Notes under the pieces: generated by a model
Databases searched by the model: none
What the model was told of the DNA's origin: nothing
The model's input: the letters and a program-made list of their open reading frames with translations, nothing else
Translations under genes and position numbers: made by a program
Origin: a virus
Direction: 5' to 3' (one strand)
Virus record (IMG/VR): IMGVR_UViG_3300044638_007036
Span: 1-64,000 of that record
DNA: 64,000 bases
Part shown: in pieces, positions 55,775 through 58,461 of the stretch
How the letters are laid out: each line of letters starts with the position of its first letter
How positions within the stretch are numbered: the first letter of the stretch is position 1

Positions 55775-56002
55775 CTATTCCCCTTTTACAATCGAGTTGA
55801 TAAGACTTGTATGACTTGCCAATCTTGCACCCACTTGATGATCCTCTTCTATCTTGTACCCTAGTTCAAGGATACTGCTCAATTGATTATCGCTGAAAGT
55901 CTTAACACCAAGCAAGCGGGCAAACTTTTCCGCTAGGTGACAAGACGGATACACTAGTTCTCTACCATAGACATTCTTAGTTTTCACATAGATAGTTTTC
56001 AT
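55775..56002 (-). CDS. Small early protein
   Basis: The protein has 75 residues, MKTIYVKTKNVYGRELVYPSCHLAEKFARLLG..., with the pattern 'Vk.vYG....yP....a..fa.l.g.kTl' common in phages. ATGA overlap with the first early gene. Unknown function. Confidence 0.6.
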   Translation of the reverse strand: MKTIYVKTKNVYGRELVYPSCHLAEKFARLLGVKTFSDNQLSSILELGYKIEEDHQVGARLASHTSLINSIVKGE

Positions 56003-56154
56003 TTAGTACCTCCATGATACTGCACTAATAAATCATAGTGTTTCTTAATCCACAAAGCCACTTCAGGATCTGTCAGTTCTTTCCCCTCTTGAGCGAGGAT
56101 AGAAAGAATGTTAAGACATGAGACTAGTTCCCTAGCAATCTCTTTTTTATCCAT
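55999..56154 (-). CDS. First gene of the leftward early operon
   Basis: The protein has 51 residues, MDKKEIARELVSCLNILSIL...DPEVALWIKKHYDLLVQYHGG, with SD GGGAGGG 4 nt upstream. Helical, typical of small phage early proteins. It is the first ORF after the structured leader RNA and so probably the earliest translated gene of the block. Function unknown. Confidence 0.65.
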   Translation of the reverse strand: MDKKEIARELVSCLNILSILAQEGKELTDPEVALWIKKHYDLLVQYHGGTK

Positions 56155-56171
56155 AATCCCTCCCTATGCAT

Positions 56172-56817
56172 TTCGGGCATTGTACCCAAAACTGTAACCT
56201 GTTAAATTTACTGAATAACTTGAACGCTATTTAGTAACTTTAACAAGTATAATTATAATCGTACCTAATCGAACTTTAATACAGTAAGAAAAAAGAACAC
56301 TGTACTGGAAACAATCGTATCTATAGCTTTACCAAAAGTAAAGCGTAGGTAAAAAATACCTACTCAGAACTACATAAAACTATATCACTAAAGTATTAGG
56401 AAAATACTCAAGTTATACCCGATTCCTCCAGTACAGTACTCAGTCAATCACTCAATAGTATACTGTTATTGTTTATCCTCGCATCTCCTATAGTATAGTC
56501 TGGACGTTTTACCTTGACGCATCTTGTTATACTTCGTTGCATCAATTCTAAGGGCAGTCATATCCGAGTTAATTCTCGTCTCACCATACCCATACAATCC
56601 ACTATAGTCCTTCGAGTGTCTTAATCTCAGTTCGTACTATTCAGTACTTAGAAGATATACCTATCTTCAGAGACTATACCACACTGCGTCAAAGCGTTCA
56701 GTCTTGCTTAAGACCATTACACTATTCAGTGTGTTGACCTATTTGGTCGAGCATCGTTCGTGGACTATAACCACGACACCTTCTTTTACAATACTTTGAG
56801 ACTCGTTGCCTTGTCTC
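56172..56817 (-). ncRNA. Large structured RNA / leader of the leftward early operon
   Basis: This stretch has no credible ORF and is dense in helices that work only as - strand RNA because extensions use G-U pairs. Main elements (plus coordinates): 25-bp arm 56295-56320 with 56415-56441 (two bulges), enclosing hairpins 56326-56344, 56345-56363 and 56391-56409; three-way junction 56615-56685 (hairpins 56634-56647 and 56651-56668); hairpins 56699-56716, 56719-56732, 56736-56748, 56758-56776 and 56798-56817; helix 56514-56520/56539-56545; 16-nt-arm hairpin 56197-56248; end hairpin 56172-56190. Promoter P4 predicts a 5' end near 56817, exactly at the first hairpin. There is no terminator before the first early gene, so it may be a long 5' UTR or a processed RNA. 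Confidence 0.75.
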
Positions 56818-56823
56818 TCTTTA

Positions 56824-56869
56824 ATCTTATCTCGGTTAATCTGAACAATCAAGCTAGGTATTTTTTGCC
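56824..56869 (-). promoter_or_regulatory. Leftward promoter P4 with upstream palindromic box
   Basis: Box GGCAAAAAATACC (56857-56869), 4 nt, -35 TTGATT (56847-56852), 17 nt, -10 TAAGAT (56824-56829). Predicted start ~56817, the first base of a hairpin in the structured RNA. Confidence 0.6.
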
Positions 56870-56907
56870 TATCGTCTCGCTGTTCGTCTTATCCTTTTGT
56901 TGCCCTC

Positions 56908-56919
56908 GGCATTATTGCC
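56908..56919. promoter_or_regulatory. Extra GGCATTATTGCC palindrome
   Basis: A 12-bp palindromic relative of the promoter boxes, placed just downstream of the predicted P3 start. Could be an operator. Confidence 0.35.
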
Positions 56920-56930
56920 TCGGTACAATC

Positions 56931-56976
56931 ATCTTACCACAATGGTTATAGGTTACAAGCCTAGGCAAACTTTGCC
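56931..56976 (-). promoter_or_regulatory. Leftward promoter P3 with upstream palindromic box
   Basis: Perfect palindrome GGCAAA-C-TTTGCC (56964-56976), 5 nt, -35 TTGTAA (56953-56958), 16 nt, -10 TAAGAT (56931-56936). Confidence 0.55.
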
Positions 56977-57029
56977 GATACCACCAAACTAAAATAGTCA
57001 AGTGTTGCATTATATTATAAGGACAGAGA

Positions 57030-57076
57030 GATCTATACTAAACTAAAATGGTTGTCAAGTATAGGCAAATTATTCC
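57030..57076 (-). promoter_or_regulatory. Leftward promoter P2 with upstream palindromic box
   Basis: Box GGCAAATTATTCC (57064-57076), 5 nt, -35 TTGACA (57053-57058), then TATAGAT at 15-17 nt. -10 is imperfect in spacing. Confidence 0.5.
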
Positions 57077-57133
57077 AGTATGGTTTAGTCAAGTAAACTG
57101 GATTGGTCAAGTATTAGGTTTGGGGAATCCTCT

Positions 57134-57181
57134 ATTGTCTCATAGAAAAGAATCGCTGTCAACCCCTAGGCAAATTCTGCC
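57134..57181 (-). promoter_or_regulatory. Leftward promoter P1 with upstream palindromic box
   Basis: Box GGCAAATTCTGCC (57169-57181), 6 nt, perfect -35 TTGACA (57157-57162), 17 nt, -10 GACAAT (57134-57139). Best sigma70-like promoter of the array. Further TTGACN boxes occur at 56996, 57087, 57105 and 57223 without good -10s. Confidence 0.6.
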
Positions 57182-57229
57182 GCTTCGTATATTCTATAAA
57201 GAAGACTGACTTAGTTGGTTATTGTCAAA

Positions 57230-57247
57230 GGGGGGGGGTGGTGGGTG
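57230..57247 (+). other. G9 tract and G-rich stretch
   Basis: Nine consecutive G followed by TGGTGGGTG in an AT-rich genome, at the right edge of the promoter array. The rest of the 57,182-57,396 gap holds the 12-mer repeat, an AACAAAT box and an ACACC/GGTGT hairpin; no gene seen. Confidence 0.5.
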
Positions 57248-57300
57248 TTAGCCGTGACGAGTTTGGGTTACTGTCTGTACACCAGAATGGGTGTTTATAT

Positions 57301-57312
57301 ATCTATGCACTA
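57301..57312 (+). repeat. 12-mer ATCTATGCACTA, copy 1
   Basis: Identical 12-mer found three times in 2.4 kb, always between genes. This copy lies 84 nt upstream of the kinase-like gene. Confidence 0.6.
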
Positions 57313-57369
57313 CCTTATGTAAACTTCTGCACTCAGTAGCTCATTGTGGGTGCTATTGTTTACACTATG

Positions 57370-57379
57370 AACAAATGTA
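57370..57379 (+). promoter_or_regulatory. AACAAATGTA leader box (copy 5)
   Basis: Same box as in the late-gene leaders at 370 and 19468; 17 nt before the kinase-like ATG. This links the kinase operon to the + strand late genes. Confidence 0.35.
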
Positions 57380-57396
57380 TTTATTGAGGATTAAAC

Positions 57397-58461
57397 ATGG
57401 GTAAGAAGATAAGCAAAGAAGAACTCTCTAATGAACAAATCGAACAATTAATCGAAGAGTTTGCTAATCTTACTGAAGAAGAAAGGCAAAAGCGTCTACT
57501 AGGTAAAGGTGCATACAAGTCAGCTTATGAAATACCCGGAAAAGACTTTGTAATAAAGAAGCCACACTATACCAGCGAAGCAATCAACGACATGGCTAGA
57601 GAATACGGAGTTAATAAAAGACTACTAGATGAAGTGGATTTAGAACCTCCCATACTTGTTACTCGTAAAAATGAACTTGGAGAAAGAGATCCGTTCCACA
57701 TTCAAAGACGAGTAGCTCCTTTAAACGACGAACTACGAGAGACTATTACAAATGATCCTAAACTTAAATCATTTAAGGAAGAAGAAGATTTCCTTTCTCA
57801 GCTAATGAAGAAGTCAGACGCAGCTAGAACTAGGGCTCTTAATGAAAACGATTTAGTAGCTGCAAAAAACTATGCAAAAGACTACCAAGATGCTTATAGC
57901 AAACTTCAACAAGTAACTAATGCAAAAATAGAAAGAAGAAATAATCTTTCCCAACCAGCAATGGAGCTTATCGATAAAGTTAGTGAGGGTATTGAAAAGG
58001 CTAATCTTAGAGGTGCAGATATCCACGAAGGAAACATCACCAAGAAAGGTAGCGTCTTCGATCTAGGATCGTGGGTTGACTACATTGATGATGACGCTAA
58101 AAGTAAGGGTCTTTCTAAGATGAGATCAAACATCGTAAAAAAAACCATCTCAGAAGCAAAAAAACCAACCAAGTTTGGCATATATAGAGCCCTCATTCCT
58201 CTTGTCGCAAAAGGAGCTTTGGCTGGAGCTACGGGATTAGCCTCTTTAGCAGCAGAAGCTTCTGATGCTACAGAAGAAGGAAGTTCTATTGAAGAAGCAG
58301 CTATGGAGAGAGAAAAGCAAGATCGTAAGTTTCGCAATACCGTAGGACAAGATACTTATAATGCATCGCAAAAATTATTAAGAAGTATTGGTCCTAAAGA
58401 TCTAATTGATCCAGATGCGCAAAAATCTCAATTTAGAACACTTAGAAATAAGCTTAAGTAA
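57397..58461 (+). CDS. Protein-kinase-like protein with hydrophobic linker and C-terminal RFxxLRxKL tag
   Basis: The protein has 354 residues with SD TGAGG 7 nt upstream. Kinase-fold features: glycine loop GKGAYKSAY (36-44), FVIK with Lys54, candidate helix-C Glu69, catalytic-loop-like D208-IHEG-N213, and D222-L-G in place of DFG. After the domain comes a Ala/Gly hydrophobic stretch (~265-287), then a charged tail ending SQFRTLRNKLK. The tail matches the tags of the next gene and of small proteins at 6.8-7.6 kb. May phosphorylate host proteins or be a pseudokinase; packaging into the virion is inferred. Confidence 0.7.
   Translation: MGKKISKEELSNEQIEQLIEEFANLTEEERQKRLLGKGAYKSAYEIPGKDFVIKKPHYTSEAINDMAREYGVNKRLLDEVDLEPPILVTRKNELGERDPFHIQRRVAPLNDELRETITNDPKLKSFKEEEDFLSQLMKKSDAARTRALNENDLVAAKNYAKDYQDAYSKLQQVTNAKIERRNNLSQPAMELIDKVSEGIEKANLRGADIHEGNITKKGSVFDLGSWVDYIDDDAKSKGLSKMRSNIVKKTISEAKKPTKFGIYRALIPLVAKGALAGATGLASLAAEASDATEEGSSIEEAAMEREKQDRKFRNTVGQDTYNASQKLLRSIGPKDLIDPDAQKSQFRTLRNKLK

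Follow-up and report, generated by a model that had tools for sequence, protein, structure and literature searches.

We analyzed a 64,000-nucleotide (nt) stretch of viral DNA (the window; positions 1 to 64,000 of the 82,095-base IMG/VR virus record IMGVR_UViG_3300044638_007036) and found, in a gene-free region, what is very likely a genuine and previously undescribed phage RNA, large and structured, on the - strand (Table 1). Its sequence places it outside Rfam, in what appears to be a new family. Comparison with two related genomes shows three predicted elements: an arm (P2-P4), a junction (P5-P7) with invariant strands, and a pairing between the apex of hairpin P10, near the first gene, and a strand of P3 that lies about 470 nt upstream. 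Our preferred reading, to which we give a probability of roughly 45%, is that this multi-domain RNA forms the leftward first ~700 nt of the early/replication transcript and would act in cis as a two-state leader.

Folding energy and compensatory changes

An earlier note, made from the letters of the window, had proposed a large, ornate RNA on the - strand at 56172-56817. The structured region is there, but it extends slightly past 56172, to about 56155. From 56155 to 56860, the - strand has a minimum free energy (MFE) of -209.3 kcal/mol, versus about -165 kcal/mol for dinucleotide-shuffled controls (z = -7.1 from 20 shuffles; z = -6.4 from 60 shuffles, none of which folded as low). When 160-nt segments were scanned, the - strand at 56301 lay below all 392 background segments from the genome, and the adjacent upstream sequence (56861-57396) was unremarkable (z = -0.7). 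The + strand also folds below its shuffles (z = -4.6 and -5.2), as inverted repeats predict, so folding energy alone leaves the strand undecided, and we argue the strand from G-U pairs. The 20 helices listed on the - strand comprise 138 pairs, with 12 G-U pairs and no mismatches, and one U-G pair is retained in all three genomes. Every helix named in the earlier note that we checked is present on this strand. These include a 17-base-pair (bp) helix with four G-U pairs and no mismatch (56441-56425 with 56311-56295), whose 17-nt arms are separated by 113 nt; as had been claimed, it extends inward (56424-56420 with 56317-56313) and encloses three hairpins.

A search guided by GP88, which is encoded downstream of the RNA, gave nine viral contigs, two of which, L004 and L002, bear a homologous RNA. 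Their GP88 is 90% and 93% identical to that of the window, respectively, and in both, the corresponding position holds a homologous stretch without genes, part of which can be aligned with BLAST. The homologous regions (L004:4085-4884 and L002:4480-5276) fold below shuffles, with z from -3.6 to -5.3. About 115 nt are inserted in L004, and the arms change fast. We built a covariance model from the window's 143-nt middle domain alone (56606-56748), whose structure is nearly reproduced by its own MFE fold. Across 553 kilobases, only L002 (5e-19) and L004 (8e-5) matched this model; a sequence-only nhmmer search with the middle domain did not report L004 at E ≤ 10. The three-sequence alignment obtained with the model has 98.2% of its cells paired, and two-sided changes occur in 23 of 38 pairs. 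None of 500 shuffles reached this number, and sliding the partner by 1 to 3 columns left at most 4 such pairs, with 39% of cells paired. At the P5-P7 junction, the strands U, UAA, and GAACU are unchanged in all three genomes while the stems have been rewritten. The P9 helix is common to the window and L004, with three pairs altered on both sides; P1 has no clear counterpart in L002. Folding controls thus back the large - strand RNA of the earlier note, and the compensatory changes in the two relatives are the decisive support. That the helices arose by chance, or are inverted repeats at the DNA level only, is hardly credible: the low energy of the + strand would fit, but compensatory changes that include G-U pairs, the conserved U-G pair, and a pseudoknot that is matched in the relatives (see below) would not.

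Protein-guided scans (with the 354-amino-acid gene, GP88, the L5 gp82-like gene, and RIIA) found no RNA-bearing contigs other than L002 and L004, and the scan with the 354-amino-acid gene found no relatives at all. Nor were any added when 2.9 million viral contigs were searched in three scans for DNA motifs. The conserved linker motif had six matches in this collection: the two relatives and four in unrelated contexts. We rejected the other DNA motif matches as relatives, as they lie in unrelated, apparently coding contexts. Scans of GTDB genomes gave no matches to the long motif, and 11 matches to a shorter motif were set aside because the three-sequence model gave them no support. A search of 50 whole virus records returned only the three known genomes. 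Three other relatives by GP88 (L003, L061, and L062) also lack genes over a stretch at that position, but it folds weakly and does not match the model. In L003, the stretch upstream of the GP88 cluster (L003:4138-4941) is a different one, with a moderate folding signal (z of about -2) and no model match.

Table 1. Predicted features of the RNA and its surroundings (window coordinates).
Feature	Position	Strand	Basis or remark
Whole structured RNA, favored as 5' leader of the leftward early operon	56155..56860 (5' end approximate)	-	folding z; homologous regions
P1 hairpin, GAGAC/GUCUC	56798..56817	-	identical in L004 (4147-4166)
P1b hairpin, UCGUGG/CCACGA	56758..56776	-	two-sided changes in 5/5 pairs among three genomes, hand-aligned
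P1c hairpin, GACC/GGUC	56736..56748	-	fold and three-genome alignment
P2-P3-P4 arm	56680..56733	-	two-sided changes in 10/17 pairs
P2 helix	56733-56727 x 56686-56680	-	
P3 helix	56723-56719 x 56697-56693	-	
P4 helix	56714-56710 x 56705-56701	-	
Pseudoknot strand 1, UGAACGCU	56693..56700	-	overlaps 3' strand of P3
P5-P6-P7 three-way junction	56623..56675	-	two-sided changes in 11/17 pairs
P8 arm, variable interior	56488..56607 (56607-56601 x 56494-56488)	-	two-sided changes in 4/7 pairs, window versus L002
Conserved linker, GUAUACURUUNAGUGAUWG	56445..56463	-	motif scan of viral contigs
P9 domain: 17-bp helix, inner 5-bp extension, three hairpins, then U-rich run	56295..56441	-	fold
P10 hairpin, with pseudoknot strand in its apical part	56197..56248	-	found in 3/3 genomes
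Pseudoknot strand 2, AGCGUUCA	56221..56228	-	P10 apex
P11 hairpin, just before ribosome-binding site	56170..56192	-	fold; common to L004
First gene of leftward operon	55999..56154	-	51 amino acids

A long-range pairing and its competing partner

The earlier note had listed an 8-nt match between 56221-56228 and 56693-56700 as a possible pseudoknot that was within chance. As this was a single pairing that was named in advance, it could be tested on the relatives. The match is real, and the verdict of chance was too cautious: at the homologous sites, the relatives keep different 7-nt complements (GAUAGCU with AGCUAUC in L002, and UGACUCG with CGAGUCA in L004). Complementarity extends over 8 nt within the window, 7 nt within L002, and 7 nt within L004, versus at most 4 nt across genomes. 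Shuffling the P10 apex gave p = 0.016 for L002 and p = 0.011 for L004, or jointly about 2e-4 if these are independent.

The first strand of the pseudoknot doubles as the 3' strand of P3, and P3 has covarying pairs of its own. One strand with two conserved partners implies either a two-state RNA or that one of the contacts is intermolecular. Because P3 and the pseudoknot share the strand and are both kept, we consider a two-state RNA most likely. The P10 apex, once transcribed, would invade P3 and rearrange the upstream domain, and the leader, acting in cis, would adjust how strongly the early operon is expressed or how transcription elongates through it. RNase III could plausibly cut the long P9 helix, and cleavage there could also free the upstream part as a stable RNA.

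Several points weigh against this reading. Typical cis-regulators are far shorter than this leader of about 700 nt. P3 and the pseudoknot could form in separate molecules instead of in two states of one. L002 carries a long helix at the position of P9, but it is built differently. The alignment of the middle domain was fitted to the window's structure, which favors pairing, although the slid and shuffled controls fail and the contrast with them is very large. Finally, there are only three genomes, so the power of the covariation analysis is limited.

Ends of the RNA and genomic setting

A U-rich run follows P9 in all three genomes. We rejected it as an intrinsic terminator: a terminator scan did not recognize it, and a terminator there would not be conserved in L002, which has no stable stem directly before the run. 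In the window and in L004, the run is preceded by a long helix closing a loop of ~110 nt, not by a compact G-C stem. Because the run is not recognized as a terminator and the pseudoknot spans both sides of it, we favor, over a stand-alone RNA, a continuous one that passes into the first early gene's leader. It is quite unlikely that a noncoding RNA ends at the U run and acts in trans, through the 8-nt complement, on P10 of the early mRNA. Such a division would account for the U run in three of three genomes and for a pairing between a site ahead of the run and a loop beyond it, but the large loop, the negative terminator scan, and the lack of an evident separate promoter argue otherwise. Upstream, there are 7 promoter-like sites, which is near the shuffled expectation of 4.5 (standard deviation, 2.5). 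In the window (56280-56310) and in L004, UACAGU, which precedes the U run, can also pair with ACUGUA, which follows it, and this alternative hairpin, which was not seen in L002, would mask the run.

The gene-free region (56155-57396) lies between leftward genes, of which the first starts at 56154, and rightward genes, which begin at 57397. The leftward genes downstream of the RNA encode an L5 gp82-like protein, GP88, a DUF932 protein, RIIA, RIIB, an Erf-like protein, an exonuclease, a primase-helicase, and a DNA polymerase. The RNA is thus placed at the head of an early/replication operon, with "early" taken from gene content. P11 ends a few nucleotides ahead of the ribosome-binding site of the first gene (AGGGAGG). 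That the region holds part of a replication origin, as an RNA or as a DNA element, is very unlikely: a divergent control region with repeated dyads, adjoining replication genes, would fit, but GC skew tracks gene direction with no independent switch point, and the structure-preserving changes suit a function as RNA. We found no tRNA genes in the window or in the remainder of the record. The L004 contig has one tRNA-Met gene (L004:7705-7781), about 3 kb downstream of the RNA.

The sequence upstream of the RNA has repeats of its own. A dyad like TAGGCAAANTTTGCCTA is present in four copies at 56855-57181 of the window (at 56855, 56962, 57062, and 57167, with a spacing of 100-107 bp) and in two copies in L004 (3982 and 4093); these are probably operators of a phage regulator. 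Within the RNA, the P9b hairpin UAGGUAUUUUUUACCUA (56345-56363) resembles this four-copy dyad, and the regulator site and the RNA hairpin may be related. Repeated ATACTTGAC / ATACCTGAC boxes, which resemble arrayed -35 elements or binding sites, occur on the - strand at 57005-57114 and at L004:3796-3971, where they are about 30-35 bp apart. In L002, a G+C-rich simple-sequence run of the CACACGCG type lies upstream of the RNA (L002:4180-4340).

Comparison with known phage RNAs

No family in Rfam 15 matched the window at its gathering score, and cmscan at E ≤ 1 (OLE, HEARO, and others) found none for the RNA of the window, L004, or L002. The earlier note could match the RNA to neither GOLLD nor ROOL, and both Rfam models agree with it. 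The GOLLD model (RF02032) had no match in the three genomes at E ≤ 10 and none at the gathering score. The ROOL model (RF03087) also had no match at E ≤ 10, which is a weaker negative because control genomes were unmatched too; the scan at the gathering score agrees. What marks a large structured phage RNA is a conserved secondary structure in which compensatory changes span several hundred nucleotides that lack an open reading frame, and this is what we found.

It is possible, if less probable than a cis-acting leader, that the RNA acts in trans or as a structural RNA like GOLLD, ROOL, or the ICP1 RNA: it would accumulate during infection, perhaps as an RNA-only multimer, with the pseudoknot as a kissing contact between copies. 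The size, the multi-arm architecture, and the fast-changing arms are all in keeping with this. GOLLD is likewise large, multi-domain, phage-encoded, and of unknown function, but tRNA genes are often (though not always) in or near GOLLD, whereas the window's genome has none and its RNA lies in the leader of the early operon. ROOL is similar as an ornate phage RNA of ~600 nt with long-range pairings. GOLLD and ROOL form RNA-only cages, and some of their long-range contacts that were detected by covariation proved to be intermolecular (PMC12286853). The GOLLD cage is an RNA-only 14-mer. Phage ICP1, which lacks tRNAs, makes an abundant noncoding transcript of ~800 nt (PMC7567579). As in the window, this large RNA lies in a region without open reading frames (~1 kb in ICP1), but it adjoins lysis genes and was shown by RNA sequencing, and we liken it to the window's RNA by description, not by sequence. 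Two observations speak against an accumulating RNA of this kind: no independent 3' end was found, and the covarying partner, P10, sits just before the ribosome-binding site of the first gene.

That the RNA is a cis-acting antitermination RNA like put of phage HK022, modifying RNA polymerase where the early operon begins, seems unlikely; its position there would suit such a role. The put RNA is far smaller than the RNA of the window, which counts against this explanation, and neither such a size nor a distant pairing is required for antitermination. By description, the two are alike in being structured RNAs at the beginning of early transcripts; put is described as acting in cis on the polymerase in a lambdoid phage (PMC9378689).

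Among these candidate mechanisms, we put a cis-acting leader with alternative pairing first and an accumulating RNA like GOLLD or ROOL second. More speculatively, and we are doubtful of this, the RNA could represent a new class of large phage RNA in which the covarying long-range contact is either quaternary kissing or a two-state switch; the leader of the early operon would then form, or toggle, an RNA-only complex by which early gene expression is controlled.

Only a few large structured RNAs have been described from phages, and for none of them is the function settled. The RNA described here is unrelated to the known ones by model search, and its place is directly in an early/replication operon's leader, not next to tRNA genes. 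One of its strands covaries with both of two competing partners. The RNA offers a concrete, testable link between a large RNA and the control of specific phage genes.
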